A DNA stretch of 60,899 nt from Bacteroidota bacterium (GTDB lineage: Bacteria > Bacteroidota > Ignavibacteria > Ignavibacteriales > SURF-24). Position 1 is the first letter of the stretch. Each line of letters begins with the position of its first letter. The stretch is from the NCBI GenBank assembly GCA_030706145.1, contig JAUZPB010000016.1:1-60899 (forward strand), in the 5' to 3' direction. Under the pieces are notes generated by a model. The model was not told the DNA's origin. It searched no databases and saw nothing but the letters and a program-made list of their open reading frames with translations. The position numbers and the translations under genes were made by a program. Shown here one piece after another: positions 20,433-31,494 of the stretch.

Positions 20433-20685
20433 TATTTCTCCTCATAGAGTAACATTTTGATTTTTCATATCTTTTGTTTATACATATCTGTTGTAAGGCC
20501 CTACAAACAAATTTTATCTTTAGACAATCAGAATTCCTGTTTATTCCGTCTTGGGGTATTTTTCTTGGGATGATTGTGAATTTTAACTGACTCTTTTTCG
20601 TTTTATATACTTGGATAAGCTGTCTCCTTTTCTAGATGAAAAGGAGTATTCTATCATAAAAGTGACCTGTGGGTCTAATTCTGAG
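20433..20685. other. Divergent control region between porin and heme operons
   Basis: No gene is seen here. The right end adjoins the heme promoter. I found no clear promoter match for the minus-strand operon. Confidence 0.4.
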
Positions 20686-20716
20686 TTGCTAATAAGAAAA
20701 GCTTTTATTATGTTTG
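20686..20716 (+). promoter_or_regulatory. Bacteroidota-type promoter of the heme operon
   Basis: TTG at 20686-20688, exactly 20 bases, then TATGTTTG at 20709-20716, matching TTG-N19-21-TAnnTTTG. The predicted start is near 20722, giving a leader of about 30 bases before hemX. Confidence 0.7.
20692..20711. promoter_or_regulatory. Candidate operator in the heme promoter
   Basis: ATAAGAAAAG (20692-20701) and CTTTTATTAT (20702-20711) form a 20-bp palindrome with nine of ten pairs. It fills the promoter spacer and enters the -7 element, where a bound repressor would block RNA polymerase. The obvious candidate protein is the TetR-HemD fusion in the same operon (inference). AAAGCTTTTATT from this site recurs at 23048-23059. 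Confidence 0.5.
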
Positions 20717-20750
20717 AACCCATCAGTCACTTTCAAAAAAAAGAAAAACT

Positions 20751-21575
20751 ATGTATTCTGCAGTCAAGATCCTAAATATTCTTCTGCCTTTTCTCTATTG
20801 CCTGACATTTCTGGTCTATCTATATGATTTTGTCAAGGAAAAGAACAGATTTGCCAATTCAAAGAGGATATTCCTGTTTGTTACATTACTAACTCACGCA
20901 ATTTATCTTTTGGTTAGAACTGTAGAGTTTAATCACCCTCCTATAACCAATGTTTTTGAAATATTTACCGTTTTGGCTTTTGCTATCAGCTGTTCTTATT
21001 TTATACTTGAACTGCTGACTGACATAAGGGGGACTGGATTATTTATAATAATTTTCTCTATCATTTTTCAGCTCATTTCATCAATCTTTATACAGGATCT
21101 CCTCCAGGTTAGAGAGGTATTGAGAAACCGTATGCTGGGACTGCACGTTATAAGTGCACTTCTTGGTTATTCTGGCATTACGATCTCTGCCGTCTACGGC
21201 ATACTTTTCTGGATACTCTATAAGGAGATCAAGCTGAACAGATTTGGACTTATTTTTGACCGCCTTCCAAGCCTGGATGTACTTGAACAGCTAAGCTTTT
21301 ATTCAGTTGTTATAGGTTTTGTCCTTTTTTCTGTTGCAATTACTATTGGGGTCGTCTGGCTCCCCTCGGCTTTCCCTAATTTTAACTATTTTGACCCCAA
21401 GCTGACCGTTACGGCCGTAATTTGGCTGATCTATGGCCTCGGGATATTGAGTAAAATTGTTGGACGCTGGCATGGAAAAAAGGTCATCGTTTTTTCAATC
21501 GCAGGCTTCTGCCTTGCTATTTTTTCGATGCTTTTGACTAATTTTCTTGCAAAGAGCTTTCACTCCTTCTACTAA
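20751..21575 (+). CDS. hemX: HemX/CcsA-like membrane protein
   Basis: This 274-residue protein with about eight membrane segments belongs to the CcsA/ResC/HemX family and leads the heme operon. In true cytochrome-c assembly members the loop reads WGxxWxWDPKE. Here the equivalent is FPNFNYFDPKLTV: the tryptophans are gone and only the DPK core remains. Heme handling as in CcsA is therefore doubtful. Its place before hemA mirrors Bacillus, where HemX lowers glutamyl-tRNA reductase levels, so a regulator or partner of HemA is the better guess. The gap to hemA is 95 bases. Confidence 0.78.
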   Translation: MYSAVKILNILLPFLYCLTFLVYLYDFVKEKNRFANSKRIFLFVTLLTHAIYLLVRTVEFNHPPITNVFEIFTVLAFAISCSYFILELLTDIRGTGLFIIIFSIIFQLISSIFIQDLLQVREVLRNRMLGLHVISALLGYSGITISAVYGILFWILYKEIKLNRFGLIFDRLPSLDVLEQLSFYSVVIGFVLFSVAITIGVVWLPSAFPNFNYFDPKLTVTAVIWLIYGLGILSKIVGRWHGKKVIVFSIAGFCLAIFSMLLTNFLAKSFHSFY

Positions 21576-21670: not shown

Positions 21671-22984
21671 ATGAATTTATTAGCAGTCAGCATTAATCAT
21701 CGAACAGCTCCTGTTGAATTAAGAGAAAGTCTTCACTTAAGCCAGGATGAAATAAAACAGATGCTTAAGGGACTTAAAGATACTCTCTTTAGTGAAGGCT
21801 TTATAATATCTACTTGTAACAGGACTGAAATCTACGGCTTCCCTTTGAATCCGCATACAAATTTTAATGATCTTCAGAAGTTTTTAATAGATAATAAATC
21901 TGTAGAAGGCATTGGCCCGACCAACTTCCAGAATTTTTTCTCATGCAGCGCAATTAACCACCTCTTTAGGGTAAGTGCAGGCATTGATTCCCTCTTTATG
22001 GGTGATAACCAGATCTTAGGACAGGTAAAGGAATCCTTCCAGCTCTCTGAGGATATTGATTTTGCCGGCTTTTTGATGAAAAGAGTCTTTGATTCGGCAA
22101 TTAAGGTTGGAAAAAGAGCAAAGACTGAAACCATAATTAGCGACGGCGCAATTACGGTAAGTTATGCTGCTGTCCAGCTTATCGAAAAAATATTCTCTAA
22201 CCTTCACCGGAAATCTGCCCTTGTCATTGGAGCCGGTGAAACCGGAGAGATTGCTGCTAAACACTTGCGCGACAAAGGTATTGGCGCGCTTACTATTACA
22301 AACAGAACACTCAAAAAGGCAGAAAAACTGGCAGAAACGGTTCATGCAAGGATAATTCCTTTTCAATATTTCAAAGAGCAGCTAAATGACTTTGATATCG
22401 TAATAAGTGCAACTAGCGCACCAGAGCTTATACTCAGCTTCAACGATGTAAAAATGGCTATGAAAAAGAGAAATAGTGCTTCTACTTGCTTTATGGATAT
22501 AGCTGTCCCAAGAGATATTGATCCTATGATTAGCCAGCTTGATAATGTTTTTTACCATGACATCGATTCTCTCAAAATTATTGTCGAGCAGAACCTAAAA
22601 AAACGTCAGGCCGAGGTCCCTAAGGTAGAATCTATAGTAATGGAGGAGATGATAAATCTCTTTAGCTGGTATAACTCGCTCGAGGTCACACCCACAATTA
22701 AGCTCTTAAGGCAGCATTTTGAAGATATTAGAGCCGAGGAAGTTGAAAAACTTAAAAATAAGTTTACAAACGAGGATATAGATAAGCTGGATATCGTGAC
22801 TAAAAGAATTATTAATAAGCTCCTGCACCACCCTACCGTTGAATTGAAAAAGATCTCTGAAGATGGTAGTGGCTCACAGGAGTCGGTCATTAGGGTAAAT
22901 GTTATTAAAAGCCTCTTTGGACTTAATGAAAATGACAATTCTTCTTCTTCTGACAACAATGGAACGGATAGAGAAAACGGATAG
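21671..22984 (+). CDS. hemA: Glutamyl-tRNA reductase
   Basis: This 437-residue enzyme performs the first committed step of the C5 heme pathway: glutamyl-tRNA plus NADPH to glutamate-1-semialdehyde. The family opening SINHRTAPVELRE and the catalytic Cys49 in STCNRTEIYG are present. The NADPH site follows at about residue 180 (VIGAGETGEIAAKHL), and a helical dimerisation domain ends the protein. The Ser/Asn-rich tail is disposable-looking. Its position after hemX and before hemC is the classic order. The next pathway gene, hemL, is not in the window. Confidence 0.96.
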   Translation: MNLLAVSINHRTAPVELRESLHLSQDEIKQMLKGLKDTLFSEGFIISTCNRTEIYGFPLNPHTNFNDLQKFLIDNKSVEGIGPTNFQNFFSCSAINHLFRVSAGIDSLFMGDNQILGQVKESFQLSEDIDFAGFLMKRVFDSAIKVGKRAKTETIISDGAITVSYAAVQLIEKIFSNLHRKSALVIGAGETGEIAAKHLRDKGIGALTITNRTLKKAEKLAETVHARIIPFQYFKEQLNDFDIVISATSAPELILSFNDVKMAMKKRNSASTCFMDIAVPRDIDPMISQLDNVFYHDIDSLKIIVEQNLKKRQAEVPKVESIVMEEMINLFSWYNSLEVTPTIKLLRQHFEDIRAEEVEKLKNKFTNEDIDKLDIVTKRIINKLLHHPTVELKKISEDGSGSQESVIRVNVIKSLFGLNENDNSSSSDNNGTDRENG

Positions 22985-23047: not shown

Positions 23048-23059
23048 AAAGCTTTTATT
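23048..23059. promoter_or_regulatory. Second copy of the heme operator core before hemC
   Basis: AAAGCTTTTATT here is identical to 20698-20709 inside the heme promoter palindrome. It ends 22 bases before the hemC start. Only about half of the full palindrome is conserved, so it may be a secondary binding site or coincidence. Confidence 0.3.
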
Positions 23060-23081
23060 GAAAATTAAAAAGAGGTTTTTC

Positions 23082-24029
23082 TTGGCAAAGAAGACAAAAA
23101 TTATTATTGGCTCACGCGGAAGCGAGCTTGCTCTCTGGCAGTCAAATTTTATAAAAAAAGAAATTGAAAAGAAGAATAAAACAGTATCTGTTGAAATCAT
23201 CTTAGTAAAGACCAAAGGTGACAAGGTCCTGGATGTGGCTTTGTCAAAGATTGGCGATAAGGGACTTTTTACAAAGGAACTTGAAACTGAACTTTTAGAT
23301 AAAAAGATTGACCTTGCCGTTCATAGCCTTAAAGACCTGCAGACAGAAATTCCACAGGGCTTAAAACTAGCCGCCGTTACAAAACGCCACCCGGTTGAGG
23401 ATGTTTTAATAGCAAGAAAGAAAAACCTGGGTATCTTTGACCTTAAAGAAGGCGCCATAGTAGCTACGGGCTCTTTAAGAAGAAGATCACAACTTCTGCA
23501 CCTCAGACCTGATATTAATGTCGTTGAACTAAGAGGTAATGTCCCTACAAGAATAAAGAAATTCCTGGACTCAGAGTGGGATGCTATCATTCTGGCAAGA
23601 GCAGGTATAGAGAGACTTGGACTTAAAAAATATGTTTCGTCATATATTCCTACTGAGATTTTATTGCCTGCTGTAGGACAGGGAGCCTTAGGACTTGAAG
23701 TCCGCTCGGACAATACAATGCTAGAGGAAATACTCCTTTCTGTACACGACGAAACTACTTACCAGGCTGCAATGGCTGAACGCGCATTCTTAAAGGCCCT
23801 TGAGGGCGGCTGCCAAGTACCAATTGGTGCATTTGCCGAGGTTAAATCTAATGGTATTTATCTAGATGGACTTGTAGGCTCGATCGATGGCAGCATTACT
23901 TTCAGGAAAAAAATAAGAGGAAGTAAAAAAGAACCTGAAAAGATTGGATACACTCTTGCAAAGGAGATCAAAAAGGCGGGAGCCGATAAGGTACTAAAGG
24001 AAATATACTCTACAGTTAGAATTAAATAA
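23082..24029 (+). CDS. hemC: Porphobilinogen deaminase (hydroxymethylbilane synthase)
   Basis: This enzyme of 315 residues joins four porphobilinogens into hydroxymethylbilane. It shows GSRGSELALWQ near the start, VHSLKDLQ with the catalytic Asp, the Arg-rich TGSLRRRSQL loop, and the cofactor-bearing Cys244 in EGGCQVPIGA. I chose the TTG at 23082 because AGAGG lies six bases before it; the TTG eight codons earlier has no ribosome-binding site. Length is normal. Confidence 0.96.
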   Translation: MAKKTKIIIGSRGSELALWQSNFIKKEIEKKNKTVSVEIILVKTKGDKVLDVALSKIGDKGLFTKELETELLDKKIDLAVHSLKDLQTEIPQGLKLAAVTKRHPVEDVLIARKKNLGIFDLKEGAIVATGSLRRRSQLLHLRPDINVVELRGNVPTRIKKFLDSEWDAIILARAGIERLGLKKYVSSYIPTEILLPAVGQGALGLEVRSDNTMLEEILLSVHDETTYQAAMAERAFLKALEGGCQVPIGAFAEVKSNGIYLDGLVGSIDGSITFRKKIRGSKKEPEKIGYTLAKEIKKAGADKVLKEIYSTVRIK

Positions 24030-24069: not shown

Positions 24070-25485
24070 TTGGCGACTAAAGGTAAAATAGAGACAAAAA
24101 AAAGTAAGAAGCGGGAAAAAATTATTGAAGCTGCTTCTGAATTATTCTCAAAAATGAACTTCCATGAAGTAATGATGGAAGATGTGGCAAAACTTGCGCA
24201 AATTGCCAAGGGCACACTCTATAACTATTATTCTTCCAAGGAGGACCTCTACTTTTCTATTATGGTCCTTAGAATGGAAAACCTTATTAACTCACTTAGA
24301 GAAAAGATCAAAATCGATGCAACAGCAGTAGACTCACTTCATACATTTGTTATTCATAACTATCTGTTCTTTGTCAAATATAGCTGCTTTTTCCGTATGT
24401 TTCAGAGAGACAGCCTGACTGCCCACAATGAAATGTGTACCGAGTTTAAATCAAAAAAATGTGAGCTCAGAGATCTTCTTAAAGAAATTATTGTATCTGG
24501 AAAAAATGTAAAACTCTTCAGGGATATTGATACAGAATTTGCAAGTGACCTCATCTTAGGCTGTATCTATGGCGCTGTTAACAGGGCAATAGATAAGGAC
24601 TATAAATTAGGGCAGATAACTGACCATGAAAGAGAGGACCTTTTAGATTTTATACTTAATGGCGTCCTTTGGCCTGATGACTCTCAGATTGACACTCATT
24701 TTAAGGAGGAAAAGCAGCTTCCGCTAAAGGGTAGAACAATAGTCATTACAAGAAGTGTTGAAGACTCAAAGGATTCCTCATCTGCTTTTTTGGATGCTGG
24801 AGCTGATGTTGTTTCATTTCCTACTCTGGAAGTTACTCAGCCTAAGGATTGGAGTGATTTTGATGATGCTGTAAAAAGCAGTTTTGATGTACTAATTTTT
24901 ACGTCCTCTAACGCAGTTAAAATGTTTGCTAAAAGGTGCCAGGAACTTGAACTTAGCCTTGATTACTCATCTTTATTTGTAATTGCACTTGGAAAGAAAA
25001 CCTCAGCTTTATGCCAGAAGTTTTCAATACCTGTTAATATGGTCCCAAAGGAGTTCAGTAGCCTTGGACTAATAAAAGAGTTATCCATATCTGATTTCAA
25101 GGGAAAGACCGTCTTAATTCCATCTTCTGCAATTTCAAGAGATGAGCTTCCCCTGGCTCTTTTGGATTTGGGAGCTATTGTAAAAAAGCCTGTAGTCTAT
25201 AGTGTGTCTGTTCCAAAAGAAGAGCATTTAACCCAGGCTATAGAAACATTAAGTAAAGCAAAGCCCGACGTATTTATTTTTACAAGTCCTTCAACCTTTA
25301 GAAATTTTCTTGATATAATGAAAATATCAGAACCAAAAAAGTATTTTGACAGTTATAGCGTTGCAGCCATTGGTCCTACGACAAAGTCGGAAATTGAAAA
25401 GGAAAATGTTCATGTTGCAATTATGCCCACTACTGAATACACGATGGATGGACTGCTAAAAGAAATAATTGTTTTTTTAAGCTAA
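24070..25485 (+). CDS. hemD: TetR-type regulator fused to uroporphyrinogen-III synthase
   Basis: One uninterrupted frame of 471 residues. Residues about 13-205 form a TetR-family regulator: a helix-turn-helix at 34-58 (EDVAKLAQIAKGTLYNYYSSKEDLY) followed by an all-helical ligand/dimer domain. Residues 219-471 form a complete HemD, which cyclises hydroxymethylbilane. Its segments are KGRTIVITRS, FTSSNAVKMF, the second lobe GKTVLIPSSAISRDEL…GA, IFTSPSTFRNF and AAIGPTTKSEIE…TMDGLLKEI. The start is TTG with a weak ribosome-binding site; the gap to hemC is 40 bases. Free-standing HemD is about 250 residues, so the regulator is an added module. I infer that it controls this operon in response to a tetrapyrrole intermediate. 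Confidence 0.92.
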   Translation: MATKGKIETKKSKKREKIIEAASELFSKMNFHEVMMEDVAKLAQIAKGTLYNYYSSKEDLYFSIMVLRMENLINSLREKIKIDATAVDSLHTFVIHNYLFFVKYSCFFRMFQRDSLTAHNEMCTEFKSKKCELRDLLKEIIVSGKNVKLFRDIDTEFASDLILGCIYGAVNRAIDKDYKLGQITDHEREDLLDFILNGVLWPDDSQIDTHFKEEKQLPLKGRTIVITRSVEDSKDSSSAFLDAGADVVSFPTLEVTQPKDWSDFDDAVKSSFDVLIFTSSNAVKMFAKRCQELELSLDYSSLFVIALGKKTSALCQKFSIPVNMVPKEFSSLGLIKELSISDFKGKTVLIPSSAISRDELPLALLDLGAIVKKPVVYSVSVPKEEHLTQAIETLSKAKPDVFIFTSPSTFRNFLDIMKISEPKKYFDSYSVAAIGPTTKSEIEKENVHVAIMPTTEYTMDGLLKEIIVFLS

Positions 25486-25521: not shown

Positions 25522-26574
25522 TTGAAGCTGAAGAATGACATATTTTTAAGAGCCTGCAAAAGAGAGCCGGTTGAAAGAACCCCTATCTGGATAATGCGCC
25601 AGGCAGGAAGATATTTGCCCGAATACAGAGCCGTAAGGGAAAAAGCAGACTTCCTGACAATGTGCAAAACTCCAGAGCTTGCCTCCGAAGTAACAATTCA
25701 GCCTGTCGATATTTTAGGTGTCGATGCGGCTATAATATTTTCTGATATACTCGTTATTCCAGAAGCAATGGGGATGCACCTTGAGATGCATGAGGGAAAG
25801 GGACCCATTTTTCCTGACCCTATACGCAAGGAATCTGACTTTAAGAATCTGCGTGATATTTCCCCAGAAAAAGATCTGAAATATGTCCTCGATGCAGTTT
25901 CTCTTACAAAAAAGGAACTTAGGCAAAGGGTCCCGCTTATTGGTTTTAGCGGATCCCCATGGACTCTTTTAACTTATATGGTCGAAGGCAGAGGGTCAAA
26001 GAACTTTTCTTTCGTAAAAAAGATGATCTATAACGAACCGCAGCTTGCACACAAGATCCTGGATAAGATTTCAAGAGCCGTCTCAGATTATCTTTCTGCA
26101 AAGATAGAATCTGGCGTAAATGCAATTCAGATCTTTGATACCTGGGGAGGAATACTCTCTCAGGAGGATTTCTATGAGTTTTCTCTTAAGTATATAGCAA
26201 AGGTCATTTCAAACATTAAGAGAAAAGATGAGCCTGTAATTGTATTTGCAAAAGGAGTCCACTATGGACTTGAAAAAATTGTAGAAAGCGGAGCCGATGT
26301 CATAGGCCTTGACTGGACGATGGATCTGGGTAGTGTAAGAAATATTTTAAAAAATAAAGCAGCTCTTCAGGGCAATATGGATCCATCTGTTTTATATGCA
26401 TCTGAAGATAAGATTAAAAATGAGGCTAAAAAGGTCCTCTCCTCTTACGGCAAAGGCAGTGGACACATCTTTAACCTGGGTCATGGTATATTGCCAGATA
26501 TTGATCCGGAAAGGGCAAAAGCACTCGTCCGGTTTGTAAAAGAAGAAAGCATGAAATTTAATTCAGGAGAGTAA
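25522..26574 (+). CDS. hemE: Uroporphyrinogen decarboxylase
   Basis: This 350-residue enzyme removes four carboxyl groups from uroporphyrinogen III to give coproporphyrinogen III. The signature WIMRQAGRYLPEYR is at residues 23-36 and the active-site Asp lies in AAIIFSDILV. GFSGSPWTLLTYMVEG and FDTWGG follow. The start is TTG with GGAAAG upstream, the third successive TTG start in the operon. The 3' end is five bases from hemN. Confidence 0.97.
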   Translation: MKLKNDIFLRACKREPVERTPIWIMRQAGRYLPEYRAVREKADFLTMCKTPELASEVTIQPVDILGVDAAIIFSDILVIPEAMGMHLEMHEGKGPIFPDPIRKESDFKNLRDISPEKDLKYVLDAVSLTKKELRQRVPLIGFSGSPWTLLTYMVEGRGSKNFSFVKKMIYNEPQLAHKILDKISRAVSDYLSAKIESGVNAIQIFDTWGGILSQEDFYEFSLKYIAKVISNIKRKDEPVIVFAKGVHYGLEKIVESGADVIGLDWTMDLGSVRNILKNKAALQGNMDPSVLYASEDKIKNEAKKVLSSYGKGSGHIFNLGHGILPDIDPERAKALVRFVKEESMKFNSGE

Positions 26575-26579
26575 AACTT

Positions 26580-27989
26580 ATGTTTCAGATAGATTTGGAT
26601 AAGGTTAGAAAATATGATAAGCCTGGTCCAAGATATACAAGTTATCCAACAGCTCCCCAGTTCAACGAGAGCTTCAGGCACGAACAGTATCTTGATGAGA
26701 TCATTAAAACCAATTATGTCAAGGATCCCTCCTCTTCCGGCCAGGGCGGAATAGCTGATCTTCCGGATATTTCACTTTATTATCATATCCCCTTTTGCGA
26801 TACTCTCTGTTACTTCTGCGGATGTAATATGTTAGTTACAAGAAACCGCCAGAGAGTAAAAGAATATGTTAAATATCTTAAGAAGGAAATTGACCTTCTG
26901 CGCACCTATATTTTGCCCGATAGGAAAGTTACACAGCTGCACTGGGGCGGCGGAACACCAACTCACCTGGATCCTGATGAGATTGATGACCTGATAAGCT
27001 ATATAGCCCAATCATTTAATTTTAAGCCTGAGGTTGAGGCTGGATGCGAAATTGATCCGCGCGGACTGACAAAGCCGCACCTTGAGGCTCTTCGTAAAGG
27101 GGGCTTTAACAGAATAAGTATGGGCGTTCAGGACTTTAATGAAAAAGTTCAGAAAGCTGTCAACAGAATTCAACCTGAAGATATTACGCGCCAGACAGTT
27201 AATTGGGTAAGAGAACTTGGATTTAATAGCATTAACCTTGACCTTATGTACGGATTGCCTTTTCAAAGCCTTCAGTCTTTTGAACAGACAGTCGACAAAG
27301 TAATTGATATTTCTCCTGATAGAATTGCTGTCTTTAATTATGCGCATGTCCCCTGGATGAAAAAGCATATGGCTCTAATCCACCCAGAGGACCTTCCTGC
27401 ACCCGAGGAGAAACTCCAGATATTAAAGATGACCATTGAAAAACTTACATCTGCAGGATATGTATTTATTGGAATGGATCACTTTGCAAAACCTGATGAT
27501 GAGCTTTCAGTTGCATTCAGGGAAAAGAAACTCTACAGGAATTTTCAGGGCTATAGCACAAACGCAGGGGCTGATCTTTATGCTATGGGAATAACAGCTA
27601 TTAGCCAGCTGCCTAGAATATACGCACAGAACTTTAAGACAGAAAAAGAATATTTCCAAGCCCTCGATGAAGAGATACTTCCTGTTGTAAAAGGATACCA
27701 TCTTAATGATGATGACTTCTTGAGACGCCGCGTGATAATGAGGCTAATGTGTGACTTTGAGCTGAATATTCCAAAAGTTGAAAAAGAATTTAATATCAAT
27801 TTCAGAGAGTATTTTGCCTGGGGACTGAACAATATGAAGCAGCACATTGACGATGGACTTGTCCAGCTTACTGGCGATGAAATAAAAGTAACTGAAATGG
27901 GAAGACTCCTTATTAGAAACATCGCAATGAACTTTGACGGATATATTGAACGCAAAGAAGATACTGCAAGGTATTCAAGAACAGTCTGA
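26580..27989 (+). CDS. hemN: Oxygen-independent coproporphyrinogen III dehydrogenase (radical SAM)
   Basis: This 469-residue radical-SAM enzyme converts coproporphyrinogen III to protoporphyrinogen IX without oxygen. The 4Fe-4S cluster motif is Cys73-x3-Cys77-x2-Cys80 with the HemN-specific Cys82 (PFCDTLCYFCGC). The N-terminal trip-wire KYDKPGPRYTSYPTAP marks true HemN rather than HemW or heme chaperones. The SAM-binding GGGTPTHL follows. AGGAGAG in the end of hemE serves as its ribosome-binding site, so the two are translationally linked. Confidence 0.97.
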   Translation: MFQIDLDKVRKYDKPGPRYTSYPTAPQFNESFRHEQYLDEIIKTNYVKDPSSSGQGGIADLPDISLYYHIPFCDTLCYFCGCNMLVTRNRQRVKEYVKYLKKEIDLLRTYILPDRKVTQLHWGGGTPTHLDPDEIDDLISYIAQSFNFKPEVEAGCEIDPRGLTKPHLEALRKGGFNRISMGVQDFNEKVQKAVNRIQPEDITRQTVNWVRELGFNSINLDLMYGLPFQSLQSFEQTVDKVIDISPDRIAVFNYAHVPWMKKHMALIHPEDLPAPEEKLQILKMTIEKLTSAGYVFIGMDHFAKPDDELSVAFREKKLYRNFQGYSTNAGADLYAMGITAISQLPRIYAQNFKTEKEYFQALDEEILPVVKGYHLNDDDFLRRRVIMRLMCDFELNIPKVEKEFNINFREYFAWGLNNMKQHIDDGLVQLTGDEIKVTEMGRLLIRNIAMNFDGYIERKEDTARYSRTV

Positions 27990-28028: not shown

Positions 28029-28991
28029 ATGGATAAAACGGCTGTGGTTCTTTTTAATTTGGGAGGTCCCGATTCTCTTGAAGCGGTTGAACCTTTTCTG
28101 ACAAATCTTTTTAGTGACAGGGATATTTTTAACCTTCCCTTCCAAGACTATCTTGCTCAATATATTGCAAGAAAAAGAGCCCCGAAGGTAATAAAGGAAT
28201 ATGAACTTATTGGGGGAAAATCTCCCATAGGGCACTGGACAGGCTTGCAAAGAGCAATGCTGGAGGATAAACTGCGCAAACTAAATCCTCTTACAGATGT
28301 TTATGTTGCTATGAGGTACTGGCATCCTCTTACTAAAGATGTTGCAAAAGAAGTTGCTGAAAAAAATTATGACAAAGTGATTCTTCTTCCCTTATATCCC
28401 CATTATTCTATTTCCACTACAGGCTCGTCTTTCAACGAGTGGAAAAGAGAATATAAGGGCAATAGCGCAAAGCTTGTATATATAAATGACTATTATGAAA
28501 ATGAGACCTATGCCAGAGCCATAAACAAAAGAATCGATGAGGCACTCTTAAAGTTTCCTGAAGAAGTCAGACATCAGGTTCAGCTTGTCTTTAGTGCACA
28601 TGGCACCCCTGTCAGCTTTGTTAAGAAGGGAGACCCATATAGTGGACAGATAAAAAAGACAGTTCAGCTTGTAATGAAACTTAGAAATAATTCTCATGAA
28701 TTTCATGAATGCTTTCAAAGCAAGGTCGGACCTGTAAAATGGCTCGAACCTTCAACAGATAAGATGATTGAAGAACTTGCGCTAAAGGGGAAAAAACATT
28801 TGCTTATAATTCCAATTAGCTTTGTCTCAGATCATGTTGAAACACTTTATGAACTTGGGATTGAATATAAACATGTTGCAGACAGGTCCGGCATTGTAAA
28901 CTATATTGTAATGACAGGACTTAATGATTCTCTCCTTTTCATCGATGCTTTATGCGATCTTGTTAATGAAGAGGTTGCAGGTGAAAGCTGA
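28029..28991 (+). CDS. hemH: Ferrochelatase
   Basis: This 320-residue enzyme inserts Fe2+ into the porphyrin ring. Family marks: NLGGPDSLEAVEPFL at the start, MRYWHP, the metal-site His in FSAHGTPVSF, and the second-lobe CFQSKVGPVKWLEPST…L with FVSDHVETLYELGIEY. GAAAGGACAA before ATG 28029 is a good ribosome-binding site. No transmembrane anchor is visible. It sits between hemN and hemG, so the last three steps are adjacent. Confidence 0.97.
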   Translation: MDKTAVVLFNLGGPDSLEAVEPFLTNLFSDRDIFNLPFQDYLAQYIARKRAPKVIKEYELIGGKSPIGHWTGLQRAMLEDKLRKLNPLTDVYVAMRYWHPLTKDVAKEVAEKNYDKVILLPLYPHYSISTTGSSFNEWKREYKGNSAKLVYINDYYENETYARAINKRIDEALLKFPEEVRHQVQLVFSAHGTPVSFVKKGDPYSGQIKKTVQLVMKLRNNSHEFHECFQSKVGPVKWLEPSTDKMIEELALKGKKHLLIIPISFVSDHVETLYELGIEYKHVADRSGIVNYIVMTGLNDSLLFIDALCDLVNEEVAGES

Positions 28992-29072
28992 AAAATGTAT
29001 TATTATGCAAGCGTAGAGTAAATCTGTAAAAATTATCTTTTTTTGTGAAAATAAAAATTTAAAGTGGAGAAT

Positions 29073-30446
29073 ATGAATAAAAGAATTGTCATCCTGGGAG
29101 CAGGTATCTCCGGCCTTGCTACTGCATACTGGCTGATGAAAGAAGGACTTGATGTTGTTGTTCTTGAAAAAGCTCCTGATGTTGGCGGCGCAATGAACAG
29201 CAGAAATGAAAATGGTTATATGGTTGATTATGGCCCTAATAGTGGCCTTGAGACTACACCTTTGATAAGAAAGCTTGTTGAAGAGACGGGAATTATTGAC
29301 CAGATGATTTATGCAAATCAGGAAGGCAACAAACGTTATATCCTGCGCGATGGAGAGCTTCATGCACTTCCAATGAATCCTCCTGCTTTTTTGAAGACAA
29401 AACTCTTTTCTGCAAAAGCTAAATTAAGATTATTTGCAGAACCATTTATCGGAAGGTCCGAAGATGGATACTACCAGAGCATTTCTGATTTTGTCAAAAG
29501 AAGACTTGGCCAGGAATTCCTTGACTATGCAATAAACCCATTTGTTGCAGGTGTCTATGCAGGTAATCCGGATGAACTGAGCGTAAAGTCTGCCTTCCCA
29601 AAACTCTACAGGCTTGAAGAGGAATATGGTGGACTTATAAAAGGGACAATAAAAGGGGCCAGGGAAAGAAAAAAAAGAAACGAGGAATCGAAGCAAAGCG
29701 CTAAGATGTTCTCCTTTAAAGATGGAATGCAGACCTTTCCAAAGGCAATATCAGAAAAGCTTGGAAGCGATAGGATTATACTTAATGCTGAGATAAAGAA
29801 AATTTCAAAGTCTGGTAGTTGTTATGTAATTCATTATACTCAAAATGGAAATACAAAAGTCCTTGAGTCTGAAATAATTATTTCGGCTCTTCCTGCTTAT
29901 TCGGCTTGCTATGCTTTTAAGGACTTTGATGATAAATTATATTCTCATCTTAAATCACTTTACTATCCACCCGTAAAAGTTCTTTTCCTGGGGTATGAAA
30001 AAAAAGCAATTGGCAGAGCTCTTGACGGCTTTGGATTTCTGATACCTGAAAAAGAGAAAAGATCTTTCCTAGGTGCTATATGGAGTTCGGTTATATTTAA
30101 TAACAGGGCCCCCGAGGGCCATGCAGCCTTTACACTCTTTGTTGGTGGTGCCCGCTCACCTGAACTCTTTGATAGCCCTGAAAAGGAACTTTACAATAAG
30201 GTAATTGGCGAGTTTCACAAGATAATGAATATTTCTGAAGATCCTGTCTTTAGGGCCGAAAGAATGTGGACCAAGGCTATACCACAGTATAACATTGGAT
30301 ATATTGAACATGAAAGATATTTCGACGAATTTGAAAAAGCTAACAAAGGAATTCTTTTAAGCGGCAATTTCAGGGGGGGAATTGCTGTGGGAGACTGTAT
30401 AAAGAGTTCAGAGATTGTTTATAAAAAAGCACTTGACCTGCTTTAA
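29073..30446 (+). CDS. hemG: Protoporphyrinogen oxidase (FAD-dependent, HemY/HemG type)
   Basis: This flavoenzyme of 457 residues oxidises protoporphyrinogen IX to protoporphyrin IX. The dinucleotide motif is at the N-terminus (RIVILGAGISGLATAYWL). The FAD-contacting segment PDVGGAMNSRNENGYMVDYGPNSG and the closing GNFRGGIAVGDCIKSS are typical of the monoamine-oxidase-like family. The ATG at 29073 is the first sensible start; a GTG three codons earlier lacks a ribosome-binding site, though GGAGA is rather close to the ATG. HemN plus this enzyme and no HemQ in view favours the protoporphyrin-dependent route. Confidence 0.94.
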   Translation: MNKRIVILGAGISGLATAYWLMKEGLDVVVLEKAPDVGGAMNSRNENGYMVDYGPNSGLETTPLIRKLVEETGIIDQMIYANQEGNKRYILRDGELHALPMNPPAFLKTKLFSAKAKLRLFAEPFIGRSEDGYYQSISDFVKRRLGQEFLDYAINPFVAGVYAGNPDELSVKSAFPKLYRLEEEYGGLIKGTIKGARERKKRNEESKQSAKMFSFKDGMQTFPKAISEKLGSDRIILNAEIKKISKSGSCYVIHYTQNGNTKVLESEIIISALPAYSACYAFKDFDDKLYSHLKSLYYPPVKVLFLGYEKKAIGRALDGFGFLIPEKEKRSFLGAIWSSVIFNNRAPEGHAAFTLFVGGARSPELFDSPEKELYNKVIGEFHKIMNISEDPVFRAERMWTKAIPQYNIGYIEHERYFDEFEKANKGILLSGNFRGGIAVGDCIKSSEIVYKKALDLL

Positions 30447-30507
30447 GTTAAATAAGCCAGGGCCAATTGAATAAAAATTGAATTTAATAATACATTGGAG
30501 AAATTTA

Positions 30508-31494
30508 ATGGCTAATTATCCGACTAAAAGATTGAGAAGACTTCGTTATAATCCTGTCGTAAGGGATATGATTAGGGAAACACATCTGGATAAGAGCGAT
30601 CTTATCTATCCGCTTTTTGTAGTCCATGGAACGAATGTAAAAAAAGAAATTAAATCGATGCCGGGCGTCTATCAGATGTCTATAGATGTCCTTGTTGAGG
30701 AATGCAAAGAGGTCTCATCCTTAGGTATTCCATCTGTACTGCTTTTTGGTATTCCCGAGCACAAGGATGAAAGGGGTTCCGAGGCCTATGATAGTAATGG
30801 AATTATACAGCAGGCCGTGCGGGCAATAAAATCAAATCTTCCAAACCTTCTCGTTGTAACTGATGTTTGCCTTTGCGAATATACATCGCATGGACATTGT
30901 GGCGTCTTAGATGGTGAAGAGATATTAAACGATGAGACAGTTTCACTCCTTGCTAAAGAAGCCGTTTCCCATGCTGAGGCCGGAGCCGATATTATTGCCC
31001 CTTCAGATATGATGGACGGGCGTATTGCTTCAATTAGAAAGGCTCTTGATTATAAAGGATTTTCAAAAACACCTATTATGAGCTATGCCGCAAAATATGC
31101 CTCGGGATTCTATGGACCTTTCAGAGATGCTGCTGAATCTACACCGGCCTTTGGCGACAGGCGCTCTCATCAGATGGATGTGGCTAATGCAGAGGAGGCT
31201 TTAAGAGAAGTTGAGGCTGATGTAGAAGAAGGAGCCGATATTGTTATGGTTAAACCTGCAGGGGCTTATCTGGATATCATTTACAGGGTAAAGGAAAAGT
31301 TCGGCTTGCCTACTGCCGCCTATCAGGTATCGGGTGAATATTCAATGATTAAAGGTGCTTCAAAACTCGGCTGGATCGATGAGGAAAGAGTCATGATTGA
31401 ATCTGTCCTTGCAATCAAGCGCGCTGGTGCAGATATTATTATTACTTACTTTGCAAAAGATATTGCTAAATATCTAGATAGGACAAGAAAATAA
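30508..31494 (+). CDS. hemB: Delta-aminolevulinic acid dehydratase (porphobilinogen synthase)
   Basis: This 328-residue enzyme condenses two aminolevulinates to porphobilinogen. The zinc-site cysteines are Cys121, Cys123 and Cys131 ([13 protein letters not shown]), placing it in the zinc-dependent group. The Schiff-base lysines are Lys196 ([17 protein letters not shown]) and Lys249 (MVKPAGAY). ATG 30508 with TTGGAGAAA upstream is better than the ATT/TTG-like start ten codons earlier. It is the last operon gene, closed by a strong terminator. Confidence 0.97.

Follow-up and report, generated by a model that had tools for sequence, protein, structure and literature searches.

NnaR, a regulator of the actinobacteria Mycobacterium and Streptomyces, carries a HemD-type domain as well as one that binds DNA. 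It is described as an orphan response regulator of nitrate and nitrite use whose HemD activity is reported to be absent, and in its hosts a second HemD is responsible for catalysis (PMC6277429). In PutA a single polypeptide serves both as metabolic enzyme and as repressor of an operon (PMC6978683). Among TetR regulators, FhtR has two 14-nt palindromes at its own promoter (PMC7858072). Gene-level control of heme synthesis in Bacteroidota-related bacteria has been little described; in the literature searched, heme biosynthesis was treated together with Melioribacter in a general review only.

Here we analyze a stretch of 60,899 nucleotides from a Bacteroidota bacterium (GenBank assembly GCA_030706145.1, contig JAUZPB010000016.1; hereafter the window), in which a TetR-type regulator and uroporphyrinogen-III synthase (HemD) share one gene. 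No TetR-HemD fusion was found in a search of open-access papers, as distinct from subscription papers and domain-architecture databases. NnaR is a precedent for joining HemD to a domain that binds DNA, while the TetR-HemD architecture is new within the literature searched. An earlier sequence-only reading of this DNA had known of no TetR-HemD fusion, in agreement with that search. The encoded protein is probably a bifunctional HemD enzyme and heme-operon autorepressor with predicted operators on its own promoter. As judged from sequence, a single protein would probably both make heme and control heme production; we infer that it binds DNA, represses, dimerises and has HemD activity.

Domain architecture and genomic setting

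The fusion gene lies within an operon of the order ccsB-hemA-hemC-[tetR-hemD]-hemE-hemN-hemH-hemG-hemB, all on the same strand (Table 1). The heme-operon setting recognized in the sequence-only reading is borne out by the identities of these neighbors, and the placement of both domains in one frame by Pfam and the predicted structure.

Table 1. Features of the heme operon and its predicted promoter region (positions in the window).
Feature	Position	Strand	Remarks
Predicted operator O1, TGACCTGTGGGTCT	20663..20676	+	9/10 of consensus; upstream of promoter TTG
Predicted -33 element, TTG	20686..20688	+	heme-operon promoter
Predicted -7 element, TATGTTTG (TAnnTTTG)	20709..20716	+	20 bases after TTG
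Predicted operator O2, GAACCCATCAGTCA	20716..20729	+	8/10 of consensus; overlaps -7 element and likely transcription start
ccsB-like cytochrome c assembly protein	20751..21575	+	first gene of the operon
hemA, glutamyl-tRNA reductase	21671..22984	+	
hemC, hydroxymethylbilane synthase	23058..24029	+	makes the HemD substrate
tetR-hemD fusion gene, 471 aa	24070..25485	+	one open frame, TTG start
TetR half, residues 1-202	24070..24675	+	FadR-like helical regulator; Pfam TetR_N; VIA-align to FadR 3whb, 5gp9
TetR helix-turn-helix, residues 18-62	24121..24255	+	most conserved stretch among fusion proteins
Linker, residues 203-215	24676..24714	+	disordered in predicted model
HemD (uroporphyrinogen-III synthase) half, residues 219-471	24724..25485	+	HEM4 match; HemD fold
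hemE, uroporphyrinogen decarboxylase	25522..26574	+	uses the HemD product
hemN, coproporphyrinogen oxidase	26580..27989	+	
hemH, ferrochelatase	28029..28991	+	
hemG/hemY-type protoporphyrinogen oxidase	29064..30446	+	
hemB, porphobilinogen synthase	30478..31494	+	

Both halves of the protein are recognized by Pfam. TetR_N matches residues 18-62 above the cut-off (E 8.8e-13; PF00440, 48.3 bits against a cut-off of 24) and HEM4 matches residues 238-463 (E 9.7e-46; 156.2 bits against 27.5), while TetR_C_24 gives a weak match below its cut-off. In an alignment of fusion proteins conservation is highest in the helix-turn-helix, and the AKGT-Y motif of the TetR half is invariant. Retention of family motifs had been noted earlier for both halves. 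Of the 21 columns that at least 90% of 29 unfused HemDs of related bacteria conserve, the HemD half retains all, including Y377. The same 21 columns are also kept in at least 90% of fused HemDs. Loss of catalytic or DNA-binding residues, which would have spoken against a working fusion, was not seen. In the TetR half, H96 was considered as a possible heme ligand; it is common but not invariant, and no claim is made for it.

An AlphaFold2 model built from a 40-sequence alignment (mean pLDDT 88, pTM 0.52) contains a TetR helical fold at residues ~8-202 and a two-lobed HemD at ~219-471. The intervening residues 203-215 have pLDDT below 50, indicating a disordered linker, and the model lacks a fixed interface between TetR and HemD. 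By Foldseek and VIA-align, residues ~8-204 match TetR structures, with Bacillus FadR (3whb, 5gp9) near the top (Z ~20.6). An all-helical ligand-binding domain, with helices over residues 57-199, aligns to many TetR structures (VIA-align Z ~20). Residues 220-471 match the HemD structures 3re1 and 1wcx (Z ~21). The identity of the ligand cannot be read from fold similarity.

TTG starts are called in the window for hemC, tetR-hemD and hemE (23058, 24070, 25522). That of the fusion is common to its closest relatives (L089, L090), and an ATG lies nearby in most others. An independent start for HemD within the linker was considered and rejected, as the linker in the window is devoid of in-frame ATG, GTG or TTG.

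Some features of the operon vary among relatives. In many of them a conserved lipoprotein-like ORF of ~200 aa, absent from the window, separates hemC from tetR-hemD or hemD (for instance, L093 8491-9181; the same gap in L101, L103, L107, L108, L111-L114, L122, L123 and L125). This extra gene was considered as a TetR and rejected, as it is the predicted lipoprotein-like ORF. In 15 of 20 fusion genomes no ferrochelatase match to the window hemH was found at E 1e-20, inside or outside the operon; for the f3 fusion genomes (L092-L109), a diverged enzyme may substitute for ferrochelatase.

Distribution and evolutionary history

The same uninterrupted fusion occurs in ~45 other genomes at 35-59% identity, in two families (f1 and f3) of the same order. 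Full-length, stop-free matches are found in three f1 genomes (G463, G462, G267; 52-59% identity) and in ~40 f3 genomes (35-56% identity). An independent alignment-based scan returned ~40 full-length fusion records titled Ignavibacteriales, Ignavibacteria, Ignavibacteriaceae or Bacteroidetes. One copy (G417) contains an internal TAA stop. Conservation across genomes rules out a stop codon lost in one assembly only, and agrees with the intact junction described in the sequence-only reading.

The domain order recurs outside these families. An Eisenbacteria MAG (L208) encodes the fusion in a ccsB-hemA-hemC-[tetR-hemD]-hemB-...-hemE-hemN operon, one of two Eisenbacteria fusions (L208, G467) among 47 genomes searched. 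Separate genes, named earlier as evidence that would count against the fusion, were met in a single distant relative (L210), where adjacent tetR and hemD overlap by ATGA at the same operon position. This arrangement resembles a precursor of the fusion or a split version of it rather than an artefact. A tblastn search found no tetR elsewhere in the heme operon of non-fusion relatives.

Of 26 fusion genomes checked, 23 encode no HEM4 protein besides the fusion, and a second is present in G398, G425 and G451. In the first two, the second HEM4 domain (G398:C29:17231-17914; G425:C79:8363-9031) lies within an open frame of 508-515 aa. By the NG86 method on close pairs, dN/dS is ~0.01-0.04 in the helix-turn-helix, rises to 0.03-0.10 in the TetR ligand domain and spans 0.04-0.30 in HemD, rough values given that many dS estimates are near or at saturation. 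These sequence comparisons indicate strong purifying selection on both halves. The HemD half is presumably the working uroporphyrinogen-III synthase of the cell, as the complete heme operon and the usual lack of another HEM4 protein indirectly suggest.

In a tree built on ccsB, HemA, HemC, HemE and HemN, the non-fusion genomes of f1 and f3 (L121; L124/L125; L122; L123; L116/L128) sit among fusion genomes, and therefore the linkage can be lost. The simplest reading of this tree is approximately five separate losses of the TetR domain. Repeated gain or replacement of HemD is a possible alternative because a HemD tree places most unfused copies outside the fused ones, with weak support. Two non-fusion genomes have two tandem HemD domains in one open frame of ~570 aa (L124 8149-9660 in G456; also G455:C116), at the position where relatives encode TetR-HemD.

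Predicted promoter and operators

The region upstream of ccsB contains a predicted TTG-N20-TAnnTTTG promoter, consistent with the Bacteroidota -33/-7 type, lying between the predicted operators O1 and O2. The stretch 20680-20730, proposed earlier for a gel-shift, holds the promoter and O2, with O1 just upstream. In ~18 fusion genomes the first base of O2 coincides with the final base of the -7 element. Its overlap with this element and with the likely start suggests repression, and it is the position of O2 only that favors repression over activation.

The operator motif, TGACY-N4-RGTCA, was first spotted by eye in the 300 bases before ccsB. It is present on the heme-operon promoter of 30/36 fusion and 0/19 non-fusion genomes, counts that come from related genomes and are hence not independent. 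Matches of at least 9/10 occur in 23/27 fusion and 0/12 non-fusion promoters, against a mean shuffle total of 0.3 for the fusion set. Because the motif had first been picked out visually, every palindrome having 5-bp arms and a spacer of 0-14 was enumerated; TGACC-N4-GGTCA ranked first (22/27 fusion versus 0/12 non-fusion), and in the shuffle control (n=20) arms with at least two G/C never rose above 4. In held-out genomes the operator was found in 7/9 fusion and 0/7 non-fusion promoters. Three non-fusion genomes (L121, L124, L125) keep such a promoter while the operator is absent, and the number of operators in non-fusion genomes nested among fusion genomes is zero.

The motif also accompanies the more distant proteins. 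Both Eisenbacteria fusions have TGACCGGTCAGTCA upstream of ccsB (shuffle frequency 0.0003 for L208), and L210, with its separate genes, has ACTGACCGGTCAGT, the same operator core. Among fusion genomes, L111, L112 and L146, all of one genus, lack the site, and L108, L109 and L145 have a weak O2 only. The case for the operator is comparative because the motif in the window alone is not beyond chance (three sites with at most one mismatch versus 4.5 expected).

A wide regulon was rejected: exact genome-wide operator matches are few and not above a reversed-pattern control, and therefore mainly one target is supported. No operator was found at the stand-alone hemH of L278 and L279. Two exact matches may be extra targets or chance: one (L131 1501-1514, G411) lies upstream of a gene that immediately follows hemB, the other (L129 1501-1514, G140) 82 bases ahead of a dihydrolipoamide-dehydrogenase-like gene.

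Mechanism and alternative explanations

In the proposed mechanism, the C-terminal half would work as uroporphyrinogen-III synthase, while the N-terminal TetR half would bind the palindromes flanking the heme-operon promoter, O2 overlapping the -7 element and start, and so repress its own operon. A small molecule in the TetR ligand domain may alter DNA binding and thereby adjust expression; candidate effectors are heme, a porphyrin intermediate and an acyl-CoA-like molecule. Through the fusion, repressor level would be coupled to the level of one enzyme of the pathway.

The explanation that competes best, to which we give somewhat less than an even chance, holds that an adjacent tetR lost its stop codon and that the halves are independent, the linkage serving co-expression without regulatory benefit. 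The overlapping separate genes of L210 at the same place in the operon, the flexible linker and the nesting of several non-fusion relatives among fusion genomes all agree with such an origin. Retention of the fusion in ~45 genomes, with very few split forms, argues against it. This explanation differs from bifunctional autorepression only in the benefit of linkage, as the roles of regulator and enzyme are the same in both.

In the broad sense of an enzyme that also controls gene expression, the fusion would qualify as a trigger enzyme, as its architecture and the predicted operator suggest. A strict trigger enzyme, in which HemD itself would be the sensor, its lobes shifting when hydroxymethylbilane or uroporphyrinogen III is bound and so altering how the TetR half binds DNA, is rather unlikely. 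Enzyme-repressors such as PutA do exist (PMC6978683), and the present regulator is fused to the branch-point enzyme of tetrapyrrole synthesis, long conserved and found also in another phylum. However, the TetR half has a ligand domain of its own that is complete, no fixed inter-domain arrangement is predicted across the disordered linker, and the same operator core occurs in L210, where the genes are separate and covalent linkage is therefore not required for the site. The related proposal that the HemD domain senses flux of hydroxymethylbilane or uroporphyrinogen III, relayed by the TetR domain to the operon promoter, is unlikely. If true, HemD would directly sense flux where tetrapyrrole synthesis branches. 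Because the TetR ligand domain is complete and the linker is flexible without a fixed interface, the TetR ligand pocket would be a simpler sensor than the HemD half. The one-protein feedback device suggested in the sequence-only reading is likely as regards feedback control, given the conserved fusion and the palindromic operator on its own promoter, whereas HemD as the sensor is possible but unsupported.

It is very improbable that the TetR half has no regulatory function and persists as a degenerate leftover or a structural tail. The operator is missing in L111, L112 and L146, and divergence of the TetR half is greatest in L111 and L112 (38-40% identity), but the helix-turn-helix is the most conserved stretch, with the lowest dN/dS given above, and the operator tracks the fusion across genomes. 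An assembly or sequencing artefact is hardly credible, for although the assemblies are draft metagenomes and the G417 copy has its internal stop, the same junction occurs in ~45 separate assemblies, including the single-contig G294 and G236.

Bifunctional autorepression would place an essential enzyme, an apparent repressor and a predicted operator in one testable unit. Relatives without the TetR domain are also without the operator and constitute natural controls. TetR-HemD offers a direct test of whether an enzyme fusion makes a better metabolic sensor.

Comparison with known systems

In PutA, catalysis is known to be coupled to DNA binding, a link that for the window fusion is hypothetical; the two proteins also differ in DNA-binding domain, enzyme and pathway. 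Bacillus FadR, an acyl-CoA-responsive member of the TetR family, is among the closest solved structures to the TetR half (22-23% identity), yet the window fusion falls below the NCBIfam FadR equivalog cut-off (68.7 versus 200 bits). Unlike FadR, this TetR half is fused to HemD and has a predicted heme-operon target.

HrtR, HatR and FhtR are TetR regulators of heme homeostasis, like the role proposed here, and the pair of 14-nt palindromes of FhtR resembles the predicted O1 and O2. In contrast to the window fusion, these proteins control heme efflux in Gram-positive bacteria and have no enzyme domain. Relative to NnaR, the domain order is reversed and the type of DNA-binding domain is different, as HemD is N-terminal in NnaR, while here TetR is N-terminal and HemD C-terminal. 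NnaR has a nitrogen role and an inactive HemD; the window fusion instead resides in a heme operon, and most genomes that carry such a fusion have no other HemD.
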